Made by a program: the position numbers and the translations under genes. The notes below the pieces were generated by a model. That model saw only the letters and a program-made list of their open reading frames with translations. It was not told the origin of the DNA and did no database searches. Shown here piece after piece: positions 7,298 through 27,613 of a stretch of DNA of 64,000 bases. Source of the DNA: Cylindrospermum stagnale PCC 7417. GTDB taxonomy: Bacteria; Cyanobacteriota; Cyanobacteriia; Cyanobacteriales; Nostocaceae. The stretch lies in the NCBI RefSeq assembly GCF_000317535.1, contig NC_019757.1:1-64000 (forward strand). Reading direction: 5' to 3'. Every line of letters begins with the position of its first letter. The stretch's first letter is position 1.

Positions 7298-7359
7298 AGA
7301 CATCAAGACTAGCAACATCACACAACGTAGTCAATCTCTCTAAGGAATTTTGCTCAAAC

Positions 7360-9311: not shown

Positions 9312-9491
9312 TAACTAATATCAGCCCTGTCAATGTCAGTTCAATTGTGAATTACTAGACGGGGCACATTTTTTTAAAACAAGTGGATTACTTTATTGCC
9401 AACTCACTCTCTAAAAGCATAAGAATTGTCATGGTTTGGAAGTCGAGTAAAACCCGTCAGGTATTGCGGTAAAGTACGTCATCATAAATTG

Positions 9492-10844
9492 TTACCCTAC
9501 AGCAATCCGTTGCATCGCTCCTGCCTTAATTTTCTCTGCCAGTGATCGTGACAATACTGATTCTGAAAAAGTAAAAGTAAAGAATATTTTACCCCCCAGC
9601 GTTGCTACACTTACAATCTTTATATTTTCAGAAGACTGAACTATTGGCCCATAGATTGCCTCTAGAGATAGTGAACCAAATTGCTGTGGTATATTTAAGC
9701 GACCTAGATTGGTAACACACAGATCCCCCTTTTGCGCCATTTGCTGATACACCATCTGTGGGTCGGGTTGGGTGGAGAGAAAAGCCTTAGTTGGTCGAAT
9801 ATACTGAAATATTTTTTCTGGCACTATCAAATCATTAATTTGGTGTTTGACTTCTTGTGCCAATCCCCAGAAGCTGGTTTCTGGCTTCAGAGTGTGCGAA
9901 GTGAATAAACCAGATATGTATAGACCAAAATCTTCCCCAATTGCTGGAACAAGGTAATTTCTCACATTACAGGGAGAGACACACTTGTGAATCGCATCTT
10001 CTGATGAATTCATCTCTTCTGCCATTGACAGGAGAAAGGCAGCACAGATAGCACCTTGAACGCTAGATTGCTTTTCAGAGCAGCGTGAAACAAGCATAGC
10101 AGTCTCCTCTGGAGAAAGGCACCAGTGAAGTATACTTGAGCGCTTGTTTCCTGAAATTGCTTCCTGGTCGCTGACACGATTCAAAACTATGTCTGCATCA
10201 GATACGCCGATTTTCTGCTGAGTTGGTGCTACTGCGGCAATAGCATTATGACTGATGTTGCCCTGAGAAAGGAAAATAAGTTCTTCCCAAGAGGGAAGTT
10301 CTGGCAATATCTCGCGAGTGGTGCCTGGAGTGCTAATCTCCAGTAGGATGTCCCGTAGTAGGTAGAGCGCCGATAAACCGTCGCCGATAGAGTGGTGACA
10401 GGTAATAATCAGTTCAGAAACAACCGCACCTTGGAGAAACACTACACGCAACAACGGTCCAGAGTTCCAAGAGAAAGGAAGTGACAGTTCAGCTTCAGCC
10501 TCCTGACACCAGTGCTCGTCTCCTTGTCGCTTAACTACTCGCAGTGGGATGTTGGCAACACCTTCTGATACAAATCGTGGCGGTTGACCATCTTCAGTCG
10601 CTATTCTCACAGCTAGTAAGGGATGCCGACGCTGAACCCAAGTTAAGGCATCTGTTAGCTGTTGGACAGTGATCGCCCCTCTGACACGCGCATTTAAAGT
10701 AAAATTAAACGACCATCTTTGGTCTAGCAGCCACCTAAGATGTTCGGACACTCCTAGTAATCGGTTCATTTCTAAATTTTTCCCTAGTTCAAATAGGTCA
10801 ATATGTCTGCCAGCTAGTAGCATGCCACGAGTCTGTGGAGACAT
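9492..10844 (-). CDS. Condensation/PapA-type acyltransferase
   Basis: A 450-residue stand-alone member of the chloramphenicol-acetyltransferase-like superfamily. The catalytic HHxxxDG motif is 'HHSIGDG' (His150, His151, Asp155, Gly156), and 'RRHPLLAVRI' is the usual substrate-channel segment. Such enzymes (PapA5, alcohol acyltransferases) transfer an acyl group from a carrier protein or CoA to a hydroxyl. It is the last gene of the minus-strand biosynthetic cluster. It may release the polyketide from the ACP or acylate the finished scaffold; both are inference, but note that the synthase has no thioesterase. An internal ATG (residue 26, start 10769) before 'NRLLGVSEHLRW' is a plausible alternative start. 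Confidence 0.8.
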   Translation of the reverse strand: MSPQTRGMLLAGRHIDLFELGKNLEMNRLLGVSEHLRWLLDQRWSFNFTLNARVRGAITVQQLTDALTWVQRRHPLLAVRIATEDGQPPRFVSEGVANIPLRVVKRQGDEHWCQEAEAELSLPFSWNSGPLLRVVFLQGAVVSELIITCHHSIGDGLSALYLLRDILLEISTPGTTREILPELPSWEELIFLSQGNISHNAIAAVAPTQQKIGVSDADIVLNRVSDQEAISGNKRSSILHWCLSPEETAMLVSRCSEKQSSVQGAICAAFLLSMAEEMNSSEDAIHKCVSPCNVRNYLVPAIGEDFGLYISGLFTSHTLKPETSFWGLAQEVKHQINDLIVPEKIFQYIRPTKAFLSTQPDPQMVYQQMAQKGDLCVTNLGRLNIPQQFGSLSLEAIYGPIVQSSENIKIVSVATLGGKIFFTFTFSESVLSRSLAEKIKAGAMQRIAVG

Positions 10845-10994
10845 AGCAGCGACAAGTGCAGCCGATGATTTTTGGAAGTCACCATATTTTCAGCCATCAG
10901 ATATCCGGAATACCCACATCAAAAGGACAATTCAAAGAATCAAACAACATGGGGTAGTTTTAGCGATTCAAGACATGCAAGAGGTCTAATGCCT

Positions 10995-11735
10995 CTACCA
11001 AGGAATTAAATTCCTCTCTTGGAAAAATTTACCTGTAGGACCACCATCTGGCAATGTTGCTACCCAGACTATCGAATCAACCCCTTCGTTAATTGTGTTG
11101 ATAGCATTGGGTCCACCCATATCAGTTTTAACCCAGCCTGGATTGACTGAATTCACCAAAATATTTGTGTTTTTTAAGGTATTAGCAAAGAGTATTGTGA
11201 GTGCATTCAGAGCAGTTTTTGAAACTCCATATATGGGAAATTGAGTAGAATTCATATTTGCTGATAATTGCCCATGTTTTGAAGATACATTCACAATTCG
11301 TCCATAATTATGAACTTGCATCAGCGGAATTAAGGTCTGGCTCAATTGCAATGATCCATAAACATTGGTTTCTATTGTTTGACGTAAAGTGTCAACCTTC
11401 ACGTTGAATATACTTCTATCTGGATTATCTAAATAATCTAAAAGAATGCCTGCATTATTCACCAGAATATCTAAATATCCAAATTCATTGCAAATAAATT
11501 CAGCCAGATGTTGAATACTATCTGTATTTGTTACATCAAGTGGGTAATATTTAACATCCAATTTCTCGGCTTGCAATTTCTCTGCTGCTGCTTGACCCTT
11601 GGCTTGATCGCGGCTGGTGAGAATGACCTTGATATCTTGTTGTGCCAGTTGGCGGCAAGTTTCAAACCCCAATCCGCGATTAGCACCCGTTACAACTGCT
11701 ATTTTTTTGATCCTAGTTACCTTTTGCATTGTCAT
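10995..11735 (-). CDS. Short-chain dehydrogenase/reductase (carbonyl-reductase type)
   Basis: NAD(P)-dependent oxidoreductase of 246 residues. It has the cofactor motif 'TGANRGLGFETC' and 'NNAG' (in 'LVNNAGILLDY'). The catalytic set is Ser in 'NVSSKHGQ' and Tyr-x-x-x-Lys in 'YGVSKTALN'. 'NPGWVKTDMGG' follows, typical of the carbonyl reductase group. It is clearly different from the ActIII-like reductase at 21323-22147. In the cluster it probably reduces a ketone or quinone late in tailoring. It is co-directional with its neighbours, 16 bases downstream of the hydrolase gene. Confidence 0.85.
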   Translation of the reverse strand: MTMQKVTRIKKIAVVTGANRGLGFETCRQLAQQDIKVILTSRDQAKGQAAAEKLQAEKLDVKYYPLDVTNTDSIQHLAEFICNEFGYLDILVNNAGILLDYLDNPDRSIFNVKVDTLRQTIETNVYGSLQLSQTLIPLMQVHNYGRIVNVSSKHGQLSANMNSTQFPIYGVSKTALNALTILFANTLKNTNILVNSVNPGWVKTDMGGPNAINTINEGVDSIVWVATLPDGGPTGKFFQERNLIPW

Positions 11736-11750
11736 ATTATATAGTCATAC

Positions 11751-12878
11751 TTAAACTGTGTTATTAGGGGCAAGCTGCGACCCCATCCAGTCGGTTATTA
11801 CTACTATGTACTGGTTGATTTGGTTCAGGCAAACATGAACCTCCTGTTCATAGATGAGCGCCTGGTGACGATCGCCCCATTTATGATTGAGAGCCTGAAT
11901 ACCGCCAATGGGAAAAATGTCGTCGAGAGTGCCGTGAATTGACAAAACATTGGTTTTGCAACCACCAGATAGATCCAGTGCCAGGCGCTCAAAAAGGTCA
12001 GGCATAGCAGTTTTTTCAGGTTCCATAAAGGCATACTGGAAATCTTCTTTGAGACGGCGCTTCATTTTCTCAAACGGTGTAATAGATGGTCCACCTGACA
12101 GATTGACAACTGCCTTGAATTTATGACCCAAATGTTTCGCTACCCGCAGAGCAATATAGCCGCCAAAGCTGACTCCGAAGAAACCAAGCCGCTTTTGATC
12201 AATGCGTGCGTCAGCAGACAAAGTATCAACAATACTGGCAATTACTTCTTCAAAATTTACAGGAATTGGAGAACGACCGAGATTGATTCCTTGCCCCGGT
12301 CCGTCGAACAAGAAAGCCGCAAATCCTCGGTTGACAAAATGTTCAGCGAAAGCAATAACCTCAACTTCCGTAACTGAATCAAGACCGTTGGAGAGAATTA
12401 CACAGGGTAAGGGTTGATGGGGGTCAACGTTGTCAGGTAATAGCAAATAGTAGGGAATTTCCACCCCGTTCCACTCGATTTTACCTGTATTCAGGGGGCG
12501 GACATTTTCGTCCCAGCTTTTGAGAAAGCAATCCTTGATGAGCTGTCGCAATACGGACTTATGGTTAGAATCGGCGAAATACATAAACTCCGCCCAGTGG
12601 TAGCAGCTAGTCGCACTGCGAAAGAGGAGACGCTGCCCCATTTTATAGGAGCAGGTTTCGGCTTGTGCAACATAGCGATCGCCAAGTTTAGACCAACCCT
12701 TCATCCAGTGTTCCCAAAACTCCGGGGTACTTATATCTGTGCAATCAGAGGGAAAATCACCCAGAGCGATCGCTAAATCGCCCCACTGGGATTGCCAAAA
12801 CAGAAGACGCGGCAGAAAATACCGACAAGCCAAATATATTTCTTCTGGTACACTCAATGGCATAGAAGCAGGATTCAT
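11751..12878 (-). CDS. Alpha/beta hydrolase, FrsA/DUF1100-like
   Basis: A 375-residue hydrolase with an N-terminal helical region (about 1-135) and an alpha/beta-hydrolase core. The nucleophile is Ser237 in 'GVSFGG'. The likely acid is Asp319 or Asp320 in 'HGTLDDIFPI', and the base is His348 in 'EQEVHVC'. 'FLFDGPGQG' is typical of the FrsA-like group. That group includes enzymes that cut carbon-carbon bonds in diketone-type substrates and the fungal polyketide-shortening hydrolase Ayg1. By analogy it might trim or release a polyketide; this is inference. Its ATG lies 3 bases after the stop of the didomain cyclase gene, so the two are very likely co-translated. Confidence 0.8.
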   Translation of the reverse strand: MNPASMPLSVPEEIYLACRYFLPRLLFWQSQWGDLAIALGDFPSDCTDISTPEFWEHWMKGWSKLGDRYVAQAETCSYKMGQRLLFRSATSCYHWAEFMYFADSNHKSVLRQLIKDCFLKSWDENVRPLNTGKIEWNGVEIPYYLLLPDNVDPHQPLPCVILSNGLDSVTEVEVIAFAEHFVNRGFAAFLFDGPGQGINLGRSPIPVNFEEVIASIVDTLSADARIDQKRLGFFGVSFGGYIALRVAKHLGHKFKAVVNLSGGPSITPFEKMKRRLKEDFQYAFMEPEKTAMPDLFERLALDLSGGCKTNVLSIHGTLDDIFPIGGIQALNHKWGDRHQALIYEQEVHVCLNQINQYIVVITDWMGSQLAPNNTV

Positions 12879-12881
12879 GGG

Positions 12882-13841
12882 CTATTTCTTCCCAGCTAAA
12901 CGACGTTCACAAGCTTCGATGGTAGTTAGAGAGTTTTTTTCCAGGGCATGATGGAGCCGTTGTTTGTAGAATGCTATGTCACCCTCTCCGAATAAATTGC
13001 GGCAGGCATTCGGCTCAATTTGGAACTCGTGGCGGGCAAAAACCGCCGTTCCACCAGGTATACTGTTGAGCTTCCAACAACCAGTATGTCTGCTCATCAC
13101 TGGAGGCGGTTCTGGCTGAAAATACTCAATTGTCAGGAGATCTCGGCGACACCGACGGATGCTGCGAATGCGCTCACTACCATAGGCTGTTTTCACCTCC
13201 ATAATGAATTCCTGATTGCTGCCGTCATCGTAAAGCATATCCACAGCCTGACAATGGGGAAGAAGCAAAGACCAGTTGGCAGCATCAGCCAGAAGAGTGT
13301 AAATGTCTGCCCCCGGAAAGGGCAGAACGCGACTTGATTCAAAGGACAAAGAAAGTTCATCCTCCTGCTGGTCTTTCCCTTCCACTATGCTTTTAATCGC
13401 GATCATTTCCGAACCGCCGTTGCGCTCGATGAAATTGATCATGAAATCGACGGCTGCTTCTGGTGTAGTTACGCCCGCTACTAAACCAGTTACGTCTTCC
13501 TTGACTACAAAGCTACGCTCAACAAAGAGCAGACTTCCACCACTGTCAAGGGGCACAACCCGCCAGCGCCCTTGCATATCGGTCAACAGTGGCATGGGTA
13601 CGGGTAGGTAGAAATCAACTCCATTGATCTGGGGCAAAAACGTCCGGTGCGTGTCCCATATCATTTCTCTGCCATTTTCCTGGGCAGTAATGCGAACCAG
13701 TTGGTAATCGTTACCTTTTTCCAGAACTTCCGTTCTGACGCAAGTCTCAAACAGATCAGGCCATTGGGAGGTGTCGGAGATAATTTGATAAACAGCCTCT
13801 ACCGGGGCATGGCAGATGATCGAATGAAATGTATTTTTCAT
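12882..13841 (-). CDS. Didomain polyketide aromatase/cyclase (SRPBCC fold)
   Basis: A 319-residue protein made of two SRPBCC/START-like domains, at about 1-155 and 165-310. This is the size and layout of the didomain aromatase/cyclases of bacterial type II polyketide pathways, which set the first ring and dehydrate it. Signatures in the first half are 'APVEAVYQIISDTSQWPDL', 'ENGREMIWDTHR' and 'MQGRWRV'. The second half repeats the pattern with 'FPGADIYTLLADAANWSLL' and 'GCWKLNSIPGGTAVF'. It lies 14 bases downstream of a single-domain relative. It is predicted to act in the cytoplasm on an ACP-bound poly-beta-ketone. Confidence 0.85.
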   Translation of the reverse strand: MKNTFHSIICHAPVEAVYQIISDTSQWPDLFETCVRTEVLEKGNDYQLVRITAQENGREMIWDTHRTFLPQINGVDFYLPVPMPLLTDMQGRWRVVPLDSGGSLLFVERSFVVKEDVTGLVAGVTTPEAAVDFMINFIERNGGSEMIAIKSIVEGKDQQEDELSLSFESSRVLPFPGADIYTLLADAANWSLLLPHCQAVDMLYDDGSNQEFIMEVKTAYGSERIRSIRRCRRDLLTIEYFQPEPPPVMSRHTGCWKLNSIPGGTAVFARHEFQIEPNACRNLFGEGDIAFYKQRLHHALEKNSLTTIEACERRLAGKK

Positions 13842-13855
13842 TATTTGTTTTCCTG

Positions 13856-14329
13856 CTAGTTATTCTGTTCTGCTAGTTTTTTGATCGAGTTGAGTTCTTT
13901 GAGGCTGTTGCGGTGGATTGCTTGCATCATAAAATCAACCGCTTCATCAGGTGTGTTAACACCATCTACTAAACCGCTCACCTCTTCCTTCACCTGAAAA
14001 TTGTGTTCGAGGGAAAGCAGACTTCCCCCCTCTGCCATCGATATCACCCGCCAGCGACCTTGCATAGATTGAAGTAGGGACATTGGCGGGTTTGTTTCAA
14101 AATTAATGCCGTAAATCTCCTCTAATAAAACCCGGTGAGAAACCCACTGCATTTCCACACCGTTTACTTCCGCAGTCACGCGGATGACTTCGTAGCCTTC
14201 ACTTTTTTCCAGGGATTCGACGTTGATACATGGCTCAAAAATGTCGGGCCATCGCACACTGTTGGAAATGATTCCATAAACAGCATTAGCTGGAGCGTGG
14301 CAGAAGATAGAATGTATTGTTGCCTTCAC
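13856..14329 (-). CDS. Monodomain polyketide aromatase/cyclase (SRPBCC fold)
   Basis: A 157-residue single SRPBCC domain, clearly paralogous to the first half of its neighbour at 12882-13841. Both share 'AP..AVY.IIS', 'WPD(I/L)FE.C', 'MQGRWRV' and the 'VDFM' tail. Monodomain enzymes of this type act as first- or second-ring cyclases in aromatic polyketide assembly. The pair probably arose by tandem duplication and divergence, with a separate role for each copy. Its start lies 11 bases after the stop of the acyl-CoA ligase gene, in the same operon-like array. Confidence 0.85.
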   Translation of the reverse strand: MKATIHSIFCHAPANAVYGIISNSVRWPDIFEPCINVESLEKSEGYEVIRVTAEVNGVEMQWVSHRVLLEEIYGINFETNPPMSLLQSMQGRWRVISMAEGGSLLSLEHNFQVKEEVSGLVDGVNTPDEAVDFMMQAIHRNSLKELNSIKKLAEQNN

Positions 14330-14339
14330 GATTTTGCTC

Positions 14340-15887
14340 TTAATTTACAGAAAATTTGATCACGTTTTCAGGTTTGATGAAGGGAAGAATATCCCGCTTC
14401 GCAATTTTGCCATTTTGGTTTTTGGGCAAAGGTTCAGGGGATATGTAAAGAAAATTAGGCCATTTTTCAGGGCTAAACATGTTACGGAAGCTTTCAGATA
14501 AAGCATCTCTCAGAGCAACAGGGTCGCCTTGTCCGCTGATTGTATAGATGCAGACCACGGGATATTCGATTGCTGTTTCTGATGATGACCAACTGACAAG
14601 CACTGCCTCCTCAACACCTGGAATTTGGTAAAGAAGATGTTCGATCTCGCTAGGATAAATTTTGTAACCATTTGGTGTGAGAACGGTTTCAGCTTCTCGT
14701 CCTTTGAGAACAAGATAGCCTTCGCTGGAAAACATTCCGAAGTCACCTGTGTGAAACCATTCACCAACTGACTCAATAATATTTTTTGGGAAGTTGCAAT
14801 AACCTGCCATCACCCCTAAACTATGAACGACAATCTCACCGATTTCATTAGGGGGCAACTTATTACCACTCGGATCGAAAACAGCGACATCAACCGTATC
14901 ATCTGGTCGTCCAATGCAATGTACATACTGAGCGTAAATTTCGGCTTTGTGATCTTCCTCCGTCAGCCAGCAGAAAGGTCCGAAAGTTTCACTCAAACCA
15001 TAGCCTTGAATCCATTCACAAGGCATTAGTTTCCGCCCTTTTTCTAGGTCTTTTACGGGCAATGGTGCAGCACCATAAGCAACAATTTCTAGGCTACTCA
15101 AATCTGCTTTGACTGTGCGTGAATCTTCAAGGAAATTTTTCATAGAGACTGGGCGCATCATAATATGAGTTAGCCGATGCTGTTGAATCTGTGGTGCCCA
15201 ATCTGCAACATCTGGACTGTTGGGAAAAAATAGAGTAGCGTTATGTGCCAGGGACCCCAAGGAATTAATAATCCCGGTGGTATTGCTCATTAGCCCTGAC
15301 ATCATTATGTGTGCGTCAGAGTGGAACTTCAGGGTCGTAGATACCTTGAGAACGCGCAGGGCGATAAGTCTTTCTTGAAGACTGATAGCTTTTGGCTTGC
15401 CCGTGGTGCCGCTAGTAAAGAGAACTAAGAAATTTTCAACTGGATTGGGGTCTTCGACGATAATATTGGTATTTGTTTTATCTATTATCTCGATTTGAGT
15501 CCGGTCAATTTCAACAAGATTAACACCTGATATCCGCGATTTTTCCAGCGTTATATCTGTTTTTTTGAGGTAAATAATATGTTCTGGTTGGGCGATTTCA
15601 AGAATATTAAGCCATTCGTTAAAAGCAGCTTCTTTGAGATTGTAAGGAATCAGAACTTGAATGCCAATAGCACTGGCAGCGAGAAAAAAGAAAACTGCAT
15701 ATTCATCGTGATCTGCAATCATCAAAACGCGCTGTCCAGGTATTACACCTTTGTCCCGTAGAAAATTGACCATTGCCGCGATGCGATCGCGAACATCTTG
15801 ATAGGTGTAGATTTGTTTTGAAGTGACAAATGCGGGTTTTTTCCAGATTGATTCATCTGAACAGTTGAGAAATGATAAAATTTTCAT
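14340..15887 (-). CDS. AMP-forming acyl-CoA/acyl-ACP ligase
   Basis: Adenylate-forming enzyme of 515 residues. It has the P-loop-like 'LFTSGTTGKPKA', 'GLSETFGPF', 'WFHTGDFGMF' and the C-terminal 'KGREAETVLTPNGYKIYP', with the catalytic lysine in 'LPKNQNGKIAKRDIL'. The order matches 4-coumarate/medium-chain acyl-CoA ligases rather than an NRPS adenylation domain, and no carrier domain is attached. In this cluster it may load a carboxylic-acid starter onto CoA or the synthase ACP, or activate an acyl group for the acyltransferase at 9492. The substrate cannot be read from the sequence by eye. Confidence 0.85.
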   Translation of the reverse strand: MKILSFLNCSDESIWKKPAFVTSKQIYTYQDVRDRIAAMVNFLRDKGVIPGQRVLMIADHDEYAVFFFLAASAIGIQVLIPYNLKEAAFNEWLNILEIAQPEHIIYLKKTDITLEKSRISGVNLVEIDRTQIEIIDKTNTNIIVEDPNPVENFLVLFTSGTTGKPKAISLQERLIALRVLKVSTTLKFHSDAHIMMSGLMSNTTGIINSLGSLAHNATLFFPNSPDVADWAPQIQQHRLTHIMMRPVSMKNFLEDSRTVKADLSSLEIVAYGAAPLPVKDLEKGRKLMPCEWIQGYGLSETFGPFCWLTEEDHKAEIYAQYVHCIGRPDDTVDVAVFDPSGNKLPPNEIGEIVVHSLGVMAGYCNFPKNIIESVGEWFHTGDFGMFSSEGYLVLKGREAETVLTPNGYKIYPSEIEHLLYQIPGVEEAVLVSWSSSETAIEYPVVCIYTISGQGDPVALRDALSESFRNMFSPEKWPNFLYISPEPLPKNQNGKIAKRDILPFIKPENVIKFSVN

Positions 15888-15932
15888 GGCAAAACTGTTA
15901 TAGCCGAGCTAATTTTCGCTGCTGATCAACTA

Positions 15933-17381
15933 CTAGGAAACTTGGCGTGCTTTTTGTTCCATTCTCCAAACAACTACTGCCAATGCAGCCGCAATACCAA
16001 GGATTAGTGCTGCAAAATTAAAAGTGCCTTTAACCCCATAGATCAAGGCTTCAGGTGAGGCTGCTGTGACATTAGCATTTTGTTCTAAGTTGGCACTTCT
16101 GAGCGTCAAAGCTGCAAAAATAGCGCCCATCAAGGGTAAAGCTATTGTCTGACCTAATGTGCGCGATAGTGATAATAACCCAGAAGCAATTCCTAGTCTT
16201 TCTTTGGGTACACTGCCCATAATGGCGCTATTGTTGGGTGACTGAAACATGCCAAAACCAATACCTAATGGTGCAATCCAGGCAATATAGACTAAATCTT
16301 TCAACTGGGCATCAAAGGTACTCATTAGCAGACAACTACAGAACATTAAAACTAATCCTATTAAACTAATTATCCGAGAACCAAAACGGTCAGACATTGC
16401 TCCAGAAAATGGGGCAACGATTCCCGTTAAAACTGGGGAAACTGCTAATAGTAAGCCAATCTTTTGGGCGGGATAGTACAAGACTAGTTGAAAGAAAAAT
16501 GGGAGAATAAAGATTATGCCGCTAATAGCAAAAAACACTAAAACTCCCATCAATAAGCTGAGGCTAAATTCCCAATTTTCAAACATCCTTAAATCGAGCA
16601 TTGGCTGATTTATGCGAGCTTCAAGGAATAAAAAAGCCGCAAAACTTAGTACTGCAATAGCAAGCAGGGTTAGAGTTTTAATACTGGTAAAGCTTTCAAT
16701 CTGCCCCTGTGTCATGCTGAGGGTGAAACTAAGGAGAGATATCGTAATGGTTGCCGAACCCAAAGCGTCAAATTGTTGGGTACGATTGGCGATTGCCTCC
16801 TGCGGTACAAACCGAACAATAATAAAACTTGCAAATATGCCGAAGGGTATGTTTACCAAGAAGATCAAACGCCAGCCAGCGATCGCAATTAGCAGCCCTC
16901 CCAATGTCGGACCTAGGCAGATTCCTAGGGAGACAATGGCACTAATTATGCCTAGGGTCTTTCCGCGTTCCGATGGGGGGAAAACTTCTGTGGCGATCGC
17001 TACGGTTAGGGCGGCTATAAACAAACCTCCTAGTCCTTGAAGTGTCCGAAACGCAATCAGCCACTCTACACTAGGAGCAAGTCCGCACAGCAAGGAGGCG
17101 ATTGTAAACAGAATTAGACCCCAGAGGTATAACAGTTTTTTGCCAAACATATCACCCAACCTTGCCGCACCGAGTACCAACGCTGTGACCACAAGCAGAT
17201 AACTAACTACTACCCATTGGATAGTCGCAAAGGTCGTATGGAGCGTGTTAACAAGAGTAGGCAAGGCGAGATTGACGATGCTGCCATCTAGGGTGAACAT
17301 TAGTAAGCCCAGCCCAACTCCTAGCAGCGCCCACCATTTTTGCGTGGCGGAAGTTTCTTCAGGAGGAACATTAAATGTCAT
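15933..17381 (-). CDS. MFS drug-efflux permease, DHA2 (EmrB/QacA) type
   Basis: A 482-residue inner-membrane protein with about 14 hydrophobic segments. It has the DHA2 signatures 'MFTLDGSIVNLALPTL' in helix 1 and 'GLGGLFIAAL' and 'LGICLGPTLGGLL' (motif C) in the middle. 'RLGDMFGKK' matches motif A. Members export small toxic molecules by proton antiport. Its position in the middle of the biosynthetic array suggests export of, and self-protection against, the cluster product. Confidence 0.88.
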   Translation of the reverse strand: MTFNVPPEETSATQKWWALLGVGLGLLMFTLDGSIVNLALPTLVNTLHTTFATIQWVVVSYLLVVTALVLGAARLGDMFGKKLLYLWGLILFTIASLLCGLAPSVEWLIAFRTLQGLGGLFIAALTVAIATEVFPPSERGKTLGIISAIVSLGICLGPTLGGLLIAIAGWRLIFLVNIPFGIFASFIIVRFVPQEAIANRTQQFDALGSATITISLLSFTLSMTQGQIESFTSIKTLTLLAIAVLSFAAFLFLEARINQPMLDLRMFENWEFSLSLLMGVLVFFAISGIIFILPFFFQLVLYYPAQKIGLLLAVSPVLTGIVAPFSGAMSDRFGSRIISLIGLVLMFCSCLLMSTFDAQLKDLVYIAWIAPLGIGFGMFQSPNNSAIMGSVPKERLGIASGLLSLSRTLGQTIALPLMGAIFAALTLRSANLEQNANVTAASPEALIYGVKGTFNFAALILGIAAALAVVVWRMEQKARQVS

Positions 17382-17533
17382 TGGACTATTTTTGATAGAT
17401 GACTTAGATATGCAGTCCTATTTGATTTGTGAACTTGCTGGTAGGCAATAGGCAATAAAATTTTTCACGAATGATTTAGGAGTGCTATAGAAGTGAGGTA
17501 AAGACTAATGAACTCCCAAAATGAAAAGATATT

Positions 17534-18322: not shown

Positions 18323-18351
18323 TTTACTCGACTCCTTTGCTCGCCGGCATT

Positions 18352-19626: not shown

Positions 19627-19648
19627 ATAGATTTTCAGAATATTCTTT

Positions 19649-19774
19649 AGGACTAAAGCTGCGTATCACAATAAACATCGATTGTCGGCTGCGTCAGACT
19701 CGATAAATCTGGCAAATAAACAGATTTTTGACATCTGACCCACCCGACAAAGCCGTGCCAGTTGCGTAAGTCCT
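19649..19774. repeat. MITE-like element, degenerate copy between the two hydroxylases
   Basis: A 126-base element whose right end is TTGCGTAAGTCCT (19762-19774), identical to the right end of the 129-base element at 32024-32152. The left end is degenerate (AGGACT at 19649-19654). The interior shares 'GCGTCAGACTC' and 'CATCTGAC.CACCCGACAA' with that element. It has no coding capacity. It lies in the 247-base gap between the tandem FAD monooxygenases and may be a relic of an insertion after their duplication. Confidence 0.65.
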
Positions 19775-19873
19775 GTTCTTGTAGAATCAATTCTGGGAGC
19801 GCAAAATCTGATGGAAAAAGTCTTTTTTCAGGTTTTAGACCGCAGATAAACGCAGCTGTTTTTGACTGATTAG

Positions 19874-21256
19874 TTATTTTGCGGATAGGTTCTCAGCTAT
19901 TGTTGATGCTTTTTGAGATGACTTGTCACCAGTCTCATACTCAGCATCCGGCAACGCATATTCGGTTTTCAGATGAGGTGGGAAAACGCCAAACGCTAGG
20001 ATTTCGGCAACGATATTACGCAAAAATGGCAAACCCCAATATGGCGGCAGATGATAAGTGTTTTCGGCTCGGATTGCTTTGGCTGTAACATTCTTTTGCA
20101 GAAAAGCCTGAAACGACTGGATAACTTTAATCGGCAACTCGCGCTGACGCTGGACTTTTGCTAGATGATGTAGCTGCAATTTACCGCGCTTGAGCGGCTC
20201 AATCAAGATGTTTGCAGCCGTTACAGCATCCTGAATCGCATAGTTGATGCCAACTCCACCCAAAGGCAACATGACGTGGGCGGCGTCACCAATCACCAAC
20301 AAGCCAGGGCGATACCATCGGGAGAGTCTGCCCAATTCGAGGGAAATTCGCGCTGTCTGCTTCCAATCTTGCAAATGGTGTACGCGATCGCTAAACTCTG
20401 GAACTACCCCAACAATAGACTGCTGCATTGCCTCTATACCCGCTGCCTGAATCTGGCGAAAGTCAGCTTTGGGAATATAGTAGGCAATCTGCCAATTTCC
20501 ATCATAGGTATTGAATTTAACTAAAATGCGCTTTTTACCAAAATGCGAGATTACCCCCTCTGCTTCATGAGAATATCGCGGTAGGCGGAACCAAAATAGC
20601 TCAAGGGGCATGGCCATTTTGTTAAATTCCATGCCTGCTAATTTACGGATATTAGAGAACCGCCCGTCTGCGGCTACAGTCAGGTGCGATCGCACTTCGT
20701 GCCAGCCCCCCTGTCCCCGATAGCGAACACCGCGAATCATTCCGTCTTCTTCGATCAGTTGTTGCACGTTTGCACCCATGAGCAACTGAAAGTTTGGGTA
20801 GCGTTTCGCCTCAATAGTCAGAAAATCTAGCAGCTTTCCCTGGGGAATAATTGTCATGTAAGGATATCGAGTTTGCATCAAACCACTTACATCCGCAAAT
20901 GTAATGTTTTTCCCGCCCACGAGGAATTTAATTGTTTCAGTCGTAGAGTAGGGAAGTTCAGCCAACAAGCGATCGCTTAAACCCATTTCGTCGAGTAGTC
21001 CCATCGCCCCAGCGTGAAGGACATCACCCCGAAAGTCACGGTTGAAGTTCTTCTGGGCCTCAATCAGCGTCACGGGAATGCCTTGACGTGCCAACAGCAA
21101 TGCCAGAACCGCCCCTGTCGGTCCACCGCCTACAATACAACAGCTTGTTTGCTGCACGTCAAGAATGACATCGGGAGTTGAAGATTCTTTATTAGTTATG
21201 GGAGTTTGTTCTACAGATTGAGACACGCCAATTCTCCGAATAATTTTGTCAATCAA
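19874..21256 (-). CDS. FAD-dependent aromatic hydroxylase, copy 1
   Basis: A 460-residue class A flavoprotein monooxygenase, paralogue of the gene at 18352. FAD motifs are 'CCIVGGGPTGAVL', 'VAADGRFSNIRKL' and 'LLVIGDAAHVMLPLGGVG'. It has about 20 extra residues at each end compared with copy 2. Two hydroxylases in tandem suggest either two successive oxidations or a divergence in regiochemistry, as in angucycline and tetracycline pathways; this is by analogy. It lies 66 bases downstream of the ActIII-like reductase in the same array. Confidence 0.88.
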   Translation of the reverse strand: MIDKIIRRIGVSQSVEQTPITNKESSTPDVILDVQQTSCCIVGGGPTGAVLALLLARQGIPVTLIEAQKNFNRDFRGDVLHAGAMGLLDEMGLSDRLLAELPYSTTETIKFLVGGKNITFADVSGLMQTRYPYMTIIPQGKLLDFLTIEAKRYPNFQLLMGANVQQLIEEDGMIRGVRYRGQGGWHEVRSHLTVAADGRFSNIRKLAGMEFNKMAMPLELFWFRLPRYSHEAEGVISHFGKKRILVKFNTYDGNWQIAYYIPKADFRQIQAAGIEAMQQSIVGVVPEFSDRVHHLQDWKQTARISLELGRLSRWYRPGLLVIGDAAHVMLPLGGVGINYAIQDAVTAANILIEPLKRGKLQLHHLAKVQRQRELPIKVIQSFQAFLQKNVTAKAIRAENTYHLPPYWGLPFLRNIVAEILAFGVFPPHLKTEYALPDAEYETGDKSSQKASTIAENLSAK

Positions 21257-21322
21257 GTCTTAGAGCAGGTATGAAGTTCTGATTAAATCCCGGATTCACC
21301 ACTATTCTGTCAATGCCTGATT

Positions 21323-22147
21323 TTAATAATTCCCCAACCCGCCGCAGATATTAATAGCCTGCGCCAGTACGGGGGCAGCTATATCTGATGCCAAGTAGAC
21401 TGCCATCGGCGCCACTTCTTCTGGAACCACATAGCGCCCCAAAGGGATGCGCGTTTCAAAACGTTTTAATACTTCCTCAGGTGTTATCCCCCACACATCT
21501 CCATACACCTGCCGAGCCTTTACCGCCAAATCTGTTTCGACAAAGCCAGGGCAAATAGCATTAACTGTCACCCCTGTTTTAGCTAGTTCGAGTCCCAGGG
21601 ATTTTGTAAAGCCAACTACTCCATGTTTAGAGGCTGTATAGGCAGCGGCAAACAAAACCCCTTGCTTACCCCCAGTAGAAGCCATATTAATAATGCGTCC
21701 CCAGCGTCGGTCTAACATACCCGATCGCGTTAGAACTGCACGTGTAACTCGGTAAACACCGTGAAGATTGGTGTCAATGATGTCGTACCAAAGATCAGGA
21801 TCGGTGGCAACAGTTGGACCACCCCCCCCGCGTCCAGCAGTGTTAACCAAAATGTCAATGCGGTTGTGGAGTTGCATCACATCTTCCACCATCCCATCTA
21901 CTAGGGCTTGATCGCGCACATCTGCTACGACTCCAGAAACTTGAATTTTTGTACCATTATTGGCATCAATAGTATTAGCGAGATCCTTCAATATAGATAT
22001 TGAATCATTCAGGTTTCCTTGTTCTCTGGCAGCGATGACTACATGAGACCCGGCAGTCAAAAAACCCTGGGCAATCGCCAATCCAATTCCCCGACTACCT
22101 CCGGTAATCAATGCTACTTTTTCTTTTAAGGGTAATTGCGAAGTCAT
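21323..22147 (-). CDS. ActIII-like polyketide ketoreductase (SDR)
   Basis: A 274-residue SDR that strongly resembles the actinorhodin ketoreductase. It has 'TGGSRGIGLAI', 'NMASTGGKQGV', 'YTASKHGVVGFTKSLGLEL', 'VNAICPGFVETDLA', 'IPLGRYV.PEEVA' and the C-terminal 'INICGGLGNY', all characteristic of polyketide C9 ketoreductases rather than general SDRs. The catalytic set is Asn127, Ser157, Tyr170 and Lys174. These four are each offset by exactly 13 from ActKR numbering as I recall it. The stereocontrol PGG motif is GGG here (107-109). It is expected to reduce one keto group of an ACP-bound poly-beta-ketone before or with first-ring closure. Confidence 0.88.
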   Translation of the reverse strand: MTSQLPLKEKVALITGGSRGIGLAIAQGFLTAGSHVVIAAREQGNLNDSISILKDLANTIDANNGTKIQVSGVVADVRDQALVDGMVEDVMQLHNRIDILVNTAGRGGGGPTVATDPDLWYDIIDTNLHGVYRVTRAVLTRSGMLDRRWGRIINMASTGGKQGVLFAAAYTASKHGVVGFTKSLGLELAKTGVTVNAICPGFVETDLAVKARQVYGDVWGITPEEVLKRFETRIPLGRYVVPEEVAPMAVYLASDIAAPVLAQAINICGGLGNY

Positions 22148-22424
22148 TTAAATCTCTCTCTATTTTGAGTTGCTTTTACTTAAATCACAGGTGGCATTAC
22201 TGCGGCTTTTTTGAAAGCTCAAAGAATTAGCCTCTTTTTGGCTAAGAAGACTTTTCGTGGCACAACCAAGTCGTATGTTTCGTCTTTTTATTTTCTGCTA
22301 AAACTTTGCTTGAGTAATTCAAAAACTCTTTTTTTCCTCAGATTCATCACCAGAAAGTAGGTTCATCGGCATATAAGTTCTGATGACTTTATCCCAGATA
22401 ACTTATTGCTATGCAACTCCTTAT

Positions 22425-23183
22425 TCAATTTTTAATCATGGCGACAACCCGACTCCAACCTGCTCCACAATTACGAACCTTGATGGGGAAACAAGCTACA
22501 GTAAAACCCGTATTTACAGGAATCTTGTCAAGATTAGCAAGTCTTTCAATCTGGCAGTATTCCTTTTCTCTCCCATATAAGTGAGCAGGCCACAAAACAT
22601 CCGACTGCTGCTTTTCTTGATATTCTGACAACATTCTATGAAACGGCGCATCAAAACCGAAACTATCTATGCCGATGACTTTCACGCCTCGTAAAACCAA
22701 CCACTCAGTTGCCTCACGAGTCACACCACGGAATTTGGTAAAGTATTCAGCTTTTCCCCAATACTTGTCGGCTCCAGTCCTCAACAATACGATATCATAA
22801 GGTTTAATATCATATTTCATAGTTGCTAACTTTTGCTCGATTTCCGCAGAAGTTATCGTTTCATCGGCTGGACATTCTGAACAGTCGATTAGCACCCCAT
22901 CATGAAAAAACCAATCAAGGGGCAAATCTTCAATTGTTTTAGCCGTTTTTCCTTCAGATAAAGGACCATAATGAGCAGGAGCATCTATGTGGGTTCCTGA
23001 ATGAGTTGTTAATTTAACAAACTCAATGGATAACCCTATTCCATCCGGAAATGCCGTGTGATCAATTCCGGCTGGTTTGCCTAGTAAGTCAGCTCCTTCC
23101 TGATGATTCACATACTCAATTTGAACAGGAACAGGTTCGCCCTCTGTGGGTTCCATCGTCACGCTAAGGTCAATTAGTTGCAT
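22425..23183 (-). CDS. Putative cyclase / kynurenine-formamidase-like metal-dependent enzyme
   Basis: A 252-residue member of the 'putative cyclase' family (PF04199 by motif). It carries the exact signature HxGTHxDxPxH as 'HSGTHIDAPAH' (residues 61-71), which binds the metal. The family includes formamidases and proteins found in aromatic polyketide clusters such as the OxyN/MtmX group. Its setting next to the PKS and ActIII-like reductase favours a cyclase role, perhaps in closing a later ring. The 277-base gap after it contains only AT-rich sequence and a weak 6-base inverted repeat at 22227-22245. Confidence 0.82.
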   Translation of the reverse strand: MQLIDLSVTMEPTEGEPVPVQIEYVNHQEGADLLGKPAGIDHTAFPDGIGLSIEFVKLTTHSGTHIDAPAHYGPLSEGKTAKTIEDLPLDWFFHDGVLIDCSECPADETITSAEIEQKLATMKYDIKPYDIVLLRTGADKYWGKAEYFTKFRGVTREATEWLVLRGVKVIGIDSFGFDAPFHRMLSEYQEKQQSDVLWPAHLYGREKEYCQIERLANLDKIPVNTGFTVACFPIKVRNCGAGWSRVVAMIKN

Positions 23184-23351
23184 AACTGATCATTTTCTCT
23201 AAGGGGATATTTTTCCAAACCCCATGGGTTTTTACTCCTAATCTCTTGCTTGATGTTGGACATTGGGGTCTCACACCTTCATCTCACCTTTGGGGAAATA
23301 AAGCAGTTTTCAAGTTAAACAAAAGCTGAATTTTCCCCTCAGTTTGTCAAT

Positions 23352-26300
23352 TTAATTGCTCAGGATTTTTTGGCTAAGTTCGTCAAGAATTTCATCAGTA
23401 AGGCGAATAATGCTGATTCCTTGAAGTAAGTTTTTCCCATGCACATCGATATCCAGTTCTTGTTTGATTTTCTCCCTGAACTCTATTGCTGAAAGCGATT
23501 CTAGTCCCAACTCAGTCAGGGTGTTATCTACTCGCAATTGATTCGGAGATCTACCAAGAATTTTCGCTATCTGAGTTTGAAGATAGTTGATTAAGATTGA
23601 ACGGCGATTGCCAGCATCTACTTTCAACTGTTGTAAAATATTAGCCTGTGTGAACACCTTGTTCGGATATCTTTCGGGGATTGATTCTTCACTTTGCTTG
23701 AAATATTGCTGTTCATTTATTTGAGTAGATTTGTCACGCAGCTCGCTCTGTTGTTCTGTGTCTTCCAGCAGCAACTCAATAATCTGTAAGCGCTGCTGTT
23801 CTAAAAGTTTCACTAATTTTTGAGAATGCATTTTATTACCCTTTTTAGAATCAACCTGATTTTGCTTCACTTGAGTAACAAGTTGAACAGATGTGGTTGG
23901 ATGATCGTTGTCTTTTTCAGTTTCCAGCCAGTAGCGTTGCCTTTGGAATGGATAGGTCGGTAAAACTACTCGGCGTCGCAGATAATCCTTGTCAAAGCCA
24001 GCCCAATCTACTTTCGCCCCACCTACATACAACTGTCCCAAACTCTGTAATAGGACTTGCCAATCGTTTTTTCCGGGATATAAACTAGGTAGCCAAGTGC
24101 CAAATCCTTCTGGCAAACACTGACGTCCCGTTCCTAACAAAATTGGCTTAGACCCACACTCTAGAAATACTTCATAGCCGAGGCTATGTAGTGTGTTTAT
24201 GCCCGCTAAAAAGTTGACGGGTGAAAGGATGTGACGGCACCAGTATTCAGGCGTTGTCAGCTCGTGGGTGACCGCTTCTCCAGTCAGATTAGAGATCATG
24301 CTAATTTTTGGAGGCGAATAAGATATTTCCCTAGCAACTTGTTTAAACTCGGCGATTATTGGCTCCATTAGCGGCGAGTGGAAGGCATGAGAAACCTGCA
24401 ACTGCTTGCTCTTAATTCCCTCAATTTCAAACCTCGCCACCACCGCTTTTACTGCTTGCTCATCTCCAGAAATAACTGTGCTTTCTGGACTATTGATGGC
24501 AGCAATCACCACTTTTGCGGCAGACTCTTCTATGACAGCAGTAACCTGCTGTTGGTTCGCCATTAGTGCTACCATCATGCCCCCCTTCGGTAATTGCTGT
24601 ATTAGCTTTCCTCGGGCTACAATTAATTTCAAAGCGTCTTCAAGGGAGAAAACTCCGGCGACACAAGCAGCAATATATTCTCCGACACTGTGACCCATGA
24701 CAGCGGACGGAGTTATTCCCCAAGACTGCCACAAACAATACAAAGCATATTCAAGCGCAAATAGACAGGGTTGAGTGTAAGCGGTTTCATCTAGCGGCGA
24801 GTTTTCCCCTGGTCGAGGATAGATAACCTCAAGCAAGGATTTCTCTAAATAGGGCTGTAAAATTTCATTGCACCGTTCGAGAGCCTTTCTAAAAGTTGGC
24901 TGTGTTTCGTAGAGTTGTCGTCCCATCTCAACATATTGAGAACCCTGTCCGGTGAACAAGAAAGCAATTTTAGCTGGCTCTGAATTATTTATTTCCCCAC
25001 TGCTAAATCCCACCGCTTCTTCATTTTGATGGAAGGCTGCCAATTTGCCCTTAATTTCTTCTGCTGAAGCTCCTACTATACTCAAGCGGTGGTGTAAGTG
25101 CAGCCGTCCTGTATTAGCCGTAAAGCAAATATCAGTTAATGCTTGTTCTGGATGATTACTTAAATGCTGAAGATACAGTTCTACTAACTGCTTGAGTGCA
25201 ACAGAAGTCTTTGCAGATATGACTAGAATATGCTCTGGACGTTCCCACTCGGAATTAACAGATTCAAGTTCGGGAGCTTCTTGCACCAGCATACAGGAAT
25301 TGGTGCCACTGATACCAAAGCAATTTAGGGCTGCCATGCGCCGCTGGGAGCTAGTCCAAGGTGTGAGCTGAGTGGGAATTTGAACTGATGTTTTTTCCCA
25401 GTCAAGGCAGGGATTGATTTTCTTGATATTGATCTGAGGTGCAATTTCCTGATTTTGAAGAGATAAGACCAACTTGATTAAAGATGCAATACCGCTCGCT
25501 GGTTCTGGATGTCCAATATTAGCTTTGCATGAACCGACTAATATGGGAGATTCTTTAGAGTGGGAAGGTCCAAAAACTTGTTCAACAGTTGTCAATTCTG
25601 TGGCATCACCAATTGCCGTTCCTGTACCATGAGCCTCAAAATAGCTCACCTCAGCAGGATTAACTTTAGCTTGAGCTAAGACGCGACGCAATAATGCTTG
25701 CTGCGATTCCCCATTAGGTGCAGAAAAACTGTAACTCGCGCCGTCTTGATTGACACCACTACCGCGAATGACTGCTAAGATATTGTCTCGATCAGCGATC
25801 GCATCAGATAGACGTTTGAGAACCACAATACCGCAGCCTTCAGCCCTGACATACCCATCCGCACTGGCATCAAAGACTTTGCAATGGCTATTCAAAGTCA
25901 GTATTCTGCCTTTGTAGGTGTAGAGGTGGACAGTCGGATCAAGTGTTAGGTTAACTCCTCCAGCCAGAGCCATTTCGCATTCGCGTTGACGCAAGCTGGT
26001 ACAGGCTTGGTGGATAGCCACTGACGAAGCAGAGCAAGCTGTATCAATAGTTAAAGCTGGCCCGGTTAGCCCCCAAGTGTAGGAGATTCGTCCGGATGCA
26101 GCGTAGGATTTAACTCCGGTCACAAAAAACAACTCGTGTTGTTTATTCAGTTCAAATGGTCGTTTTTGTACGACATCATTGTAATCTTCAGAAGTTAGAC
26201 CAATGAAAACACCAGTGGGACTACCTGCCAATCTATCTGGTACATACCCCGCTCTTTCCAAAGCCTCCCAACTGACTTCTAAAAGCAAGCGATGTTGCGG

Positions 26301-26666
26301 GTCAATTGCACCTGCCTCTCGAGGCGAAATTCTAAAAAAATCTGGGTCGAATTGGTCGATATCTGTTAAAAAGTAGCCATAACGCAACGGCATTTTGCCA
26401 GTAACGCTGGGATCTGGATCATAATAGTTGTTGAGTGCCCAACGCGCTTCCGGAATTTCTGTAGCCGAATTAGTACCAGAGCGCAGTAATTTCCAAAAGC
26501 TCTCTGGATCGTTGGCTCCAGGAAATCGGCAACTCATGCCAATAATCGCAATAGGTTCAGTCTGATATTTCTCTAGCTTATCTAATTGACTTTCGAGCTG
26601 CTGAATTACAAAATCTGAGTTTTCCAAGGCAGAAGGGAGGTTCGAGTTGTATTCAAATTTATTCAT
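23352..26666 (-). CDS. Type I polyketide synthase, KS-AT-ACP
   Basis: A 1104-residue multidomain synthase. The KS spans about 36-460, with the catalytic triad Cys211 ('DTACSASS'), His346 ('EAHGTGT') and His386 ('KANIGH'). The AT spans about 565-860, with Ser660 in 'GHSVGEY' and 'HAFHSP' (760-765), the signature for malonyl-CoA. A linker is followed by an ACP (about 1025-1095) with the phosphopantetheine Ser1057 in 'GLESLSA'. There is no KR, DH, ER, product-template or thioesterase domain. Alone in its cluster, it must either act once or iterate; the company of ActIII-like reductase and aromatase/cyclases favours iteration to a poly-beta-ketone. It is first in the array, so it is probably near the promoter. 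Confidence 0.92.
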   Translation of the reverse strand: MNKFEYNSNLPSALENSDFVIQQLESQLDKLEKYQTEPIAIIGMSCRFPGANDPESFWKLLRSGTNSATEIPEARWALNNYYDPDPSVTGKMPLRYGYFLTDIDQFDPDFFRISPREAGAIDPQHRLLLEVSWEALERAGYVPDRLAGSPTGVFIGLTSEDYNDVVQKRPFELNKQHELFFVTGVKSYAASGRISYTWGLTGPALTIDTACSASSVAIHQACTSLRQRECEMALAGGVNLTLDPTVHLYTYKGRILTLNSHCKVFDASADGYVRAEGCGIVVLKRLSDAIADRDNILAVIRGSGVNQDGASYSFSAPNGESQQALLRRVLAQAKVNPAEVSYFEAHGTGTAIGDATELTTVEQVFGPSHSKESPILVGSCKANIGHPEPASGIASLIKLVLSLQNQEIAPQINIKKINPCLDWEKTSVQIPTQLTPWTSSQRRMAALNCFGISGTNSCMLVQEAPELESVNSEWERPEHILVISAKTSVALKQLVELYLQHLSNHPEQALTDICFTANTGRLHLHHRLSIVGASAEEIKGKLAAFHQNEEAVGFSSGEINNSEPAKIAFLFTGQGSQYVEMGRQLYETQPTFRKALERCNEILQPYLEKSLLEVIYPRPGENSPLDETAYTQPCLFALEYALYCLWQSWGITPSAVMGHSVGEYIAACVAGVFSLEDALKLIVARGKLIQQLPKGGMMVALMANQQQVTAVIEESAAKVVIAAINSPESTVISGDEQAVKAVVARFEIEGIKSKQLQVSHAFHSPLMEPIIAEFKQVAREISYSPPKISMISNLTGEAVTHELTTPEYWCRHILSPVNFLAGINTLHSLGYEVFLECGSKPILLGTGRQCLPEGFGTWLPSLYPGKNDWQVLLQSLGQLYVGGAKVDWAGFDKDYLRRRVVLPTYPFQRQRYWLETEKDNDHPTTSVQLVTQVKQNQVDSKKGNKMHSQKLVKLLEQQRLQIIELLLEDTEQQSELRDKSTQINEQQYFKQSEESIPERYPNKVFTQANILQQLKVDAGNRRSILINYLQTQIAKILGRSPNQLRVDNTLTELGLESLSAIEFREKIKQELDIDVHGKNLLQGISIIRLTDEILDELSQKILSN

Positions 26667-27380: not shown

Positions 27381-27388
27381 TTAAAATC

Positions 27389-27535: not shown

Positions 27536-27613
27536 TTAACGGCATCTAAAGAAAGATTGTCATCATATATATCGTATGATTCCTGTCCGTGGTAAACCCC
27601 CATTTTTTGGTAG

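Follow-up and report, generated by a model that had tools for sequence, protein, structure and literature searches.

A Probable ant-Type Anthraquinone Pathway with a Type I KS-AT-ACP Synthase in the Cyanobacterium Cylindrospermum stagnale PCC 7417

Main Finding

The first 64,000 nucleotides of contig NC_019757.1 of Cylindrospermum stagnale PCC 7417 (the window, below) carry a row of 13 genes, extending from 9492 to 26666, in which a type I polyketide synthase (PKS) made of ketosynthase (KS), acyltransferase (AT), and acyl carrier protein (ACP) domains is set among tailoring genes of the kind found in the Photorhabdus ant cluster. We propose, with a probability of roughly 0.7, an anthraquinone pathway of the ant type whose AntD, AntE, and AntF, i.e., the KS-alpha, the chain length factor (CLF), and the ACP, have given way to a type I KS-AT-ACP synthase recruited from a modular PKS of cyanobacteria. 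Its product is probably an anthraquinone that bears hydroxyl, methyl, and acyl groups. The ant pathway itself is known from Photorhabdus; what is new is the ant-type tailoring set with a type I chain builder.

The original prediction for this DNA was that an iterative type I synthase serves trans-acting type II-style enzymes. This is the best reading and is supported; iteration itself would follow mainly from a second genome, that of Crinalium epipsammum PCC 9333, in which most of the gene set and a single PKS ketosynthase were found.

The KS-AT-ACP Synthase

Pfam searches detect in the synthase a KS N-terminal domain (317.9 bits), an AT (199.6 bits), and a PP-binding domain (35.8 bits). The active-site motifs of all three domains are intact: DTAC at residue 208, EAHGTG at 344, NIGH at 383, GHSVGE at 658, HAFH at 760, and GLESLSA at 1054. 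The KS thus retains its Cys-His-His set. The HAFH motif of the AT is presumably of the malonyl-specific kind. Domain searches found a KS, a linker, an AT, and a PP-binding domain only; no ketoreductase (KR), dehydratase, product template (PT), thioesterase (TE), or starter unit-ACP transacylase (SAT) domain was found, and the protein ends shortly past the ACP. A single modular-type KS-AT-ACP protein had been predicted, and that is what the gene encodes. Among proteins of solved structure, the modular KS-AT CurL comes first (1120 bits); the fungal norsolorinic acid synthase (NSAS) and CTB1 score 531 and 458 bits. Among the 120 relatives listed, the Crinalium protein alone is both full-length and more than 60% identical.

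The C-terminal ACP of the synthase is the sole carrier domain found in the cluster; discrete ACPs elsewhere in the genome were not searched for. The absence of a KS-alpha/KS-beta/ACP minimal PKS, noted earlier from the row itself, extends beyond it: none is encoded in the cluster, and no KS-alpha/CLF pair was found among the 21 KS matches of the genome (two of them pieces of one frame), the individual check covering the discrete and paired frames. These are a 415 aa frame (FabF), a 380 aa frame (a PRK05952-type KS), a 421 aa frame beside HMG-CoA synthase (a PRK07103-type KS), and two adjacent frames of 470 and 1115 aa (PfaA/PfaB-like). The other matches sit in frames of at least 1011 aa. A hidden KS-alpha/CLF pair was rejected given the identities of the checked frames.

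The AntI Homologue

The gene at 11751–12878 encodes an alpha/beta hydrolase whose kinship with AntI had been overlooked. The protein is a full-length homologue of Photorhabdus AntI, with an E-value of 1.7e-117 against solved structures and 48% identity. AntI is described as taking the ACP-bound bicyclic octaketide off the carrier, trimming it to a heptaketide, and closing the third ring of AQ-256 (PMC11165489). The residues named in that account are Tyr20, Arg24, the GLDS loop at 173–176, Ser245, Arg282, Asp326, Asp327, and His355 (PMC11165489). Their equivalents in the window protein are Y20, R24, GLDS at 165–168, S237, R274, D319, D320, and H348, and all of the mechanistic residues compared are invariant in an alignment of the window, Crinalium, and Photorhabdus proteins. 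The presence of an AntI homologue thus makes the pathway specifically ant-like.

AntI Loci in Other Bacteria

When named genomes of bacteria and archaea were scanned with an AntI alignment, using two short peptide patterns, 18 non-cyanobacterial AntI loci were returned: ten from Photorhabdus and one each from Mixta, Streptomyces, Frankia, Pseudofrankia, Parafrankia, an Oxalobacteraceae strain, and a Cellvibrionaceae and a gammaproteobacterial metagenome-assembled genome (MAG). Because the patterns are short and two in number, more divergent loci can be missed. In all 18 loci, the lyase and an aromatase/cyclase (ARO/CYC) lie beside a KS-alpha/CLF pair; 17 have an ACP match, and none has a type I KS-AT open reading frame (ORF). 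The two cyanobacterial AntI loci found both carry a KS-AT-ACP protein instead of KS-alpha and CLF.

The window cluster has counterparts of AntA, AntC, AntG, AntH, and AntI, namely the KR, the PF04199 cyclase, the ligase, the monodomain and didomain ARO/CYCs, and the lyase. Compared with the Photorhabdus loci, the KR is 46–48% identical, the cyclase 45–46%, the ligase 40–42%, the didomain ARO/CYC 36–38%, and the monodomain protein 46% (one locus). The matches to the 18 loci as a whole are given in Table 1. Three loci show only distant short-chain dehydrogenases/reductases (SDRs) in place of a KR match, and for the ligase one further locus (L074) has a 31% match and two have none that was seen. 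The loci span at most 10 kb on each side of AntI, so that some absences may be cuts. Ligase, ARO/CYC, and AntI genes are consecutive in 14 of the 18 loci, as they are in the window.

The two SRPBCC genes of the window deserve a separate word. Photorhabdus AntH is one protein with three SRPBCC stretches, of which residues 7–155 match the monodomain protein (46%) and residues 164–476 the didomain protein (37%). The two genes therefore look like a split AntH. The comparison covered nine of the 18 loci, and six of these nine have a three-part AntH-type protein. Among solved structures, the didomain protein is closest to BexL (8.6e-29), followed by StfQ (2.2e-11).

In E. coli lacking the ligase AntG, octaketide shunt products are reported to fall 13-fold, and ACP loading has been proposed as the role of AntG (PMC6638757). 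Retention of an AntG-type ligase beside a type I ACP suggests that this role is not tied to AntF.

AntI and Type II Loci in Cyanobacteria

A true AntI is rare in cyanobacteria. A sample of 386 genomes from across the phylum and one of 217 genomes from the family of C. stagnale each yielded one case, and 388 genomes drawn from the larger group that makes up its order yielded two; these samples overlap. In the phylum search, 131 of the 386 genomes matched AntI at E ≤ 0.001, but apart from the window none did better than 1.4e-17 across some 200 residues, which marks the remaining matches as other hydrolases. The didomain ARO/CYC has matches at 1e-20 in the same two genomes of the order only. A search for the gene set in other genomes of the order, as had been recommended, thus yields one further case, Crinalium (two of 388, counting the genome of the window). 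In line with the earlier statement that no characterized cyanobacterial pathway of this design is known, no cyanobacterial cluster combining a KS-AT-ACP with ant-type tailoring turned up in searches of open-licence papers.

Cyanobacteria do own true type II PKSs, with a tailoring set that differs from that of the window. KS-alpha and CLF genes side by side were found in ten of the 388 genomes of the order (L109–L118). These ten were chosen by a step in score (E of 2.6e-109 or better, the next match being at 2.0e-104) and only they were checked for a CLF neighbor; in all, 374 of the 388 genomes matched KS-alpha at the cut-off, most plausibly through FabF. Nine of the ten loci have a PF04199 cyclase at 45–48% identity together with a ligase at only 23–25%; the tenth lies on a contig of 5.6 kb. 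No AntI or KR match was found in the ten stretches, six of which have a distant SRPBCC match, and no AntI or close ARO/CYC was found in the ten genomes. For these reasons, i.e., the lack of AntI and KR matches in those loci and the low identity of their ligases, we did not adopt the idea that the tailoring genes descend from the type II PKSs of cyanobacteria. The Gloeocapsa gloPKS is described as a true cyanobacterial type II PKS (PMC11744666). It too is a cyanobacterial aromatic PKS, with a true KS-alpha/CLF where the window has a KS-AT-ACP. The ten loci are similar to it in their KS-alpha/CLF pair and may be its relatives.

The Crinalium Cluster

The second cluster lies on plasmid pCRI9333.01 (54,978 bp, typed as mobilizable) of Crinalium epipsammum PCC 9333, a member of another family. 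The gene set of the window recurs there in largely the same order. The 11 genes in common have ratios of nonsynonymous to synonymous substitution rates (dN/dS) of 0.08–0.23; they are under purifying selection. Recurrence in another family, together with these ratios, indicates that the gene set is more than chance. The KR, both ARO/CYCs, and AntI are 81–92% identical between the two clusters, with dN/dS of 0.09–0.20.

The clusters differ as follows. The Crinalium cluster lacks the second SDR (10995–11735), its major facilitator superfamily (MFS) exporter is of another type, with EF-hands, and it holds in addition an EF-hand protein, an AtaL-like protein, a NAD-binding dehydrogenase, and an O-methyltransferase. 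The exporter with EF-hands and the separate EF-hand protein, at 6634–8337 and 15340–15882 of pCRI9333.01, suggest a calcium link. Synonymous divergence (dS) is uneven along the row: it is 0.33–0.44 for the acyltransferase, AntI, and didomain ARO/CYC genes and 0.55–1.09 for the other eight shared genes. The lower values in part of the 9492–13841 genes hint at recombination between parts of the cluster.

One contig of the Crinalium genome (G118; 5.6 Mb, rated 100% complete) is this plasmid, with bases 20001–54978 being identical. The genome has four PF00109 matches: the KS of the cluster, a 423 aa FabF-like frame, a 403 aa KS-like frame, and a weak match in a 396 aa frame. Searches with AntD and with a Streptomyces CLF gave three matches each. 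The PF00109 search brought up no second PKS ketosynthase, and no KS-alpha/CLF pair was found. Thus no assembly-line partner of the synthase was found there.

Origin of the Ketosynthase and History of the Gene Set

The original prediction had called for a KS phylogeny. A maximum likelihood tree was built from 32 KS domains, i.e., 39 tblastn pieces less one duplicate and six pieces of at most 330 residues, three type II KS-alphas being among the six; the tree includes three type II KSs and some of the KSs of the C. stagnale genome. The window and Crinalium KSs pair with support of 100/100 inside the cyanobacterial modular KSs, and the enclosing sets have support of 95/93 and 96/98. The KS is thus a member of the modular cis-AT clade. 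The stem of the pair, at 0.79 changes per site, is the longest inner branch within the modular set.

At sites conserved to at least 80%, the two KSs share 21 residues absent from 21 other modular-type KSs, whereas six control pairs share 0, 1, 3, 3, 3, and 7 such residues. When mapped through the C. stagnale FabF, several of the 21 adjoin catalytic motifs or the two gating loops: C449, S457, and C458 flank gating loop 1, and S313 is within loop 2. These loops are described for E. coli FabF (PMC7138838). The shared changes may be said to fit a shift in function, without proving one. Between the two clusters the KS is 86% identical, and with a dN/dS of 0.106 it is the most constrained part of the synthase.

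Trees of the tailoring proteins have 14 rows for AntI, 14 for ARO/CYC, 12 for the ligase, 10 for the cyclase, and 12 for the KR. They include four of the ten Photorhabdus loci and matches below 1e-25 only; the L059 row of the KR tree is a distant SDR. The cyanobacterial pair stands together, outside Photorhabdus, and the deeper order is weakly supported.

Proposed Pathway and Its Alternatives

In Photorhabdus, a KS/CLF is described as building an octaketide on the ACP, after which a KR acts at C9, AntH and AntC form and aromatize the bicycle, and AntI finishes the product (PMC11165489). The scheme that we propose for the window is modeled on this one, and its iteration, chain length, timing, trimming, and product are predicted from the genes. 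The AT would load malonyl units onto the fused ACP, where the homodimeric KS would carry out repeated, non-reducing elongation up to roughly the octaketide stage. The AntG-like ligase would probably help to charge or prime the carrier protein. The trans-acting ActIII-like KR would then reduce C9, and the split AntH, i.e., the monodomain and didomain SRPBCC proteins, would form and aromatize the first two rings on the ACP together with the AntC-like cyclase. The AntI homologue would take the chain off the ACP, probably trim it, and close the third ring. The two FAD hydroxylases, the methyltransferase, and the PapA-like acyltransferase would modify the anthraquinone with oxygen, methyl, and acyl groups, and the MFS pump would export the product. 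As to how this arrangement arose, we lean toward a history in which a single assembly-line module lost its neighbors, turned iterative, and replaced KS-alpha, CLF, and ACP, while the KR, ARO/CYC, and AntI kept acting on the chain, now on a fused ACP.

Several points weigh against the proposal. AntI could offload only, without trimming. The C. stagnale genome encodes further type I PKSs outside the cluster, so that clean evidence against an assembly line comes from Crinalium alone. The KS tree holds no characterized iterative aromatic type I KS, that clade thus being outside the comparison, and it carries a warning of long branches in other parts of the tree. A longer stem alone predicts more unique KS changes, and one single sequence (L054_3893) has 54 of them, single modular ones having 1–12. 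Among the tailoring trees, that of the KR alone groups the pair with a gammaproteobacterial MAG (94/92), so that the tailoring set may not have one common history. Finally, none of the 13 cluster proteins matches the phosphopantetheinyl transferase (AntB) family, for which the genome was not searched.

We had also considered the unique KS changes as proof of iteration. We rejected this reading, since the pair sits on a longer stem than the control pairs do and L054_3893 alone carries 54 such changes.

Of the alternatives, the one that best survives keeps the iterative synthase and does without the trimmed anthraquinone: the chain would not be an octaketide, or AntI would offload only, giving an octaketide or another polycycle. 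This is possible, though we regard it as doubtful. Chain length in type II systems is described as set by KS/CLF (PMC12664062), the very part replaced here, and the KS carries unique changes, some of them beside the two gating loops. Yet the catalytic and gating residues of AntI are invariant, including Y20, R274, D320, and the GLDS loop, and the KR and ARO/CYCs are closest, among the solved or compared proteins, to C9-reducing systems.

The KS-AT-ACP may instead belong to an assembly line with further modules encoded elsewhere, in which case the tailoring enzymes would act on a longer product. The place of its KS in the cyanobacterial modular clade, the match to CurL as the closest protein of solved structure, and the other type I PKS genes of its own genome agree with this. 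We judge it quite unlikely, as the set is kept under purifying selection in Crinalium, where no other PKS ketosynthase was found, the protein ends shortly past its ACP with no TE found, and the lyase and ARO/CYC occur beside KS-alpha/CLF in all 18 other loci, with the ActIII-like KR in 15. The evidence that the original prediction had named as counting against it was sought and not encountered; as to further PKS modules, none was found in Crinalium, and the C. stagnale genome has other type I PKS genes outside the cluster.

Very improbable in our view is a synthase that extends a ligase-activated starter once, giving a small aromatic, with the ARO/CYCs and AntI being relics or acting elsewhere. 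A ligase is present, and the modular KSs among which this KS falls normally act once per chain; but relics would hardly fit a KR, ARO/CYCs, and AntI that are so alike and so constrained across families, and 15 of the 18 loci have this type of ligase next to KS-alpha/CLF. The least credible alternative, in which a host FabF-type KS elongates in trans with the AT-ACP part and the type I KS is confined to priming or gating, has in its favor that both genomes encode a discrete FabF closer to AntD (39–40%) than the type I KS is (26–27%), and against it the intact Cys-His-His set and strong constraint of the type I KS and the lack of a FabF copy encoded in the cluster.

Relation to Known Systems

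The Photorhabdus antABCDEFGHI cluster, which makes AQ-256, shares with the window counterparts of AntA, AntC, AntG, AntH (split in two genes here), and AntI and the order ligase-ARO/CYC-AntI. It has AntDEF where the window has one type I KS-AT-ACP and no AntB in the cluster, and the window adds hydroxylases, a methyltransferase, an acyltransferase, and an exporter.

Cyanobacterial modular cis-AT PKSs of the CurL type resemble the window synthase in KS, AT, and linker sequence and share its KS clade; the synthase differs from them in being a stand-alone single module, with no TE found, in its 21 shared KS changes, and in the ant-type tailoring genes around it. Fungal non-reducing PKSs, such as NSAS and CTB1, likewise use one polypeptide to build an unreduced chain, as is proposed here, followed by cyclization; no SAT, PT, or TE was found in the window synthase, and the cluster encodes the cyclases and the lyase as discrete proteins of type II style. 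Compared with type II aromatic PKSs, the window has neither a KS-alpha/CLF heterodimer nor a discrete ACP in the cluster. In the account of PMC12664062, control of chain extension rests with the KS in non-reducing type I systems and with KS/CLF in type II systems, and PT domains of the former do the job of the ARO/CYCs of the latter. The window mixes a type I builder with type II cyclases. NaPDoS2 is described as dividing bacterial iterative cis-AT KSs into aromatic, polycyclic tetramate macrolactam, enediyne, and polyunsaturated fatty acid subclasses, the products of the aromatic subclass being generally mono- or bicyclic (PMC9582728).

The lyase also has distant fungal relatives in the same superfamily. 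Afyg1p and Wdyg1p, polyketide-shortening hydrolases of melanin synthesis, are discrete enzymes that trim the product of a type I PKS. They are far more distant from the window lyase (1.5e-9 and 1.1e-15, respectively) than AntI is, and their substrate is described as free, not ACP-bound (PMC11165489).

Type I and type II PKSs are usually treated as separate routes to aromatics. Here, in two genomes, the ant-type tailoring set is kept and the chain builder is a different one, beside many relatives with a type II builder. If the proposal is true, it offers a natural control experiment on chain length without a CLF and on a modular KS becoming iterative, and it also tests whether ARO/CYC and AntI recognize the chain rather than the carrier protein. 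Chain length would then be settable by a single homodimeric KS or by trans-acting, chain-capturing enzymes, and a single-chain KS-AT-ACP could be a handy part for engineering aromatic polyketides. With one PKS ketosynthase found in Crinalium epipsammum PCC 9333, its product should be traceable.

The Gene Row

All 13 ORFs of the predicted row are present at 9492–26666, co-directional on the minus strand, with the KS gene first and the acyltransferase gene last (Table 1). Pfam searches confirmed the domain content as it had been listed. The expected HxGTHxDxPxH motif appears as HSGTHIDAPAH in the PF04199 protein; the KR is ActIII-like, its best solved structure being the actinorhodin KR; and there are one monodomain and one didomain SRPBCC protein and two PF01494 FAD hydroxylases, as proposed. 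The hydroxylases we take to be of class A. The MFS exporter is distantly like the tetracenomycin exporter TcmA (167.8 bits with the TcmA model, below the model cut-off).

Table 1. Genes of the cluster and the segment that holds it, in window coordinates.
Feature	Coordinates	Strand	Evidence
Type I KS-AT-ACP synthase, 1104 aa	23352..26666	-	Pfam domains; active-site motifs; 76% identity to Crinalium protein
PF04199 cyclase, AntC counterpart	22425..23183	-	Pfam 3.5e-35; 44–49% identity to cyclases of 14/18 AntI loci
ActIII-like ketoreductase, AntA counterpart	21323..22147	-	Actinorhodin KR 9.5e-80; 45–53% identity to KRs of 15/18 AntI loci
FAD hydroxylase 1 (PF01494)	19874..21256	-	PF01494 1.1e-47; Crinalium counterpart 67% identical
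FAD hydroxylase 2 (PF01494)	18352..19626	-	PF01494 6e-49; Crinalium counterpart 86% identical
S-adenosylmethionine (SAM)-dependent methyltransferase	17534..18322	-	Methyltransf_11 2.3e-13; Crinalium counterpart 85% identical
DHA2-family MFS exporter, EmrB-type	15933..17381	-	TIGR00711 275.2 bits, above cut-off
AMP-binding ligase, AntG counterpart	14340..15887	-	40–44% identity to ligases of 15/18 AntI loci
Monodomain SRPBCC protein, N-terminal third of AntH	13856..14329	-	46% identity to Photorhabdus AntH residues 7–155
Didomain aromatase/cyclase, C-terminal two thirds of AntH	12882..13841	-	BexL 8.6e-29; 37% identity to AntH residues 164–476
AntI-type alpha/beta lyase; predicted offloading, trimming, ring closure	11751..12878	-	AntI in PDB 1.7e-117; 48% identity
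Second SDR reductase	10995..11735	-	PF00106 2.8e-49; no counterpart in Crinalium cluster
PapA/condensation-like acyltransferase	9492..10844	-	PapA_C 1.9e-11, Condensation 9.4e-11; Crinalium counterpart 86% identical
Segment holding the cluster, missing from same-genus relative G001	9379..28162	.	Both flanks kept in order in G001

Genomic Surroundings

In one genome of the same genus (G001), the flanks of the cluster are found without it. At its locus L092, window 7255–9378 corresponds to 5225–7371 and window 28163–32217 to 10287–14983; the flanks match in pieces at 85–91% identity, with 2.9 kb of unmatched DNA between them in place of 9379–28162. In another genome of the genus (G002), the right flank is partly matched, the next 10 kb have no left-flank match, and no clean empty site is seen. 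The empty site in G001 and the plasmid location in Crinalium point toward acquisition by horizontal transfer but do not prove it.

Just upstream of the synthase, inside the segment missing from G001, lie decayed frames on the minus strand (about 27600–28160) that by eye resemble fragments of nonribosomal peptide synthetase (NRPS) adenylation domains. The dnaA and dnaN genes are at 30–3030, placing the cluster close to the chromosomal dnaA region. On the other side, at 29528–35173, genes for a regulator with a helix-turn-helix (HTH) and a periplasmic-binding-like domain, NifH, NifE, and NifN are direct neighbors and may belong to an alternative nitrogenase region; NifD and NifK had no match in the ten frames examined further downstream. 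A 1039 aa frame at 46957–50076, partly in a stretch of 30% G+C, has no NCBIfam match at 1e-40. Finally, a CyRepA1-family plasmid replication protein is encoded at 57486–60614, within a contig of 7.0 Mb.

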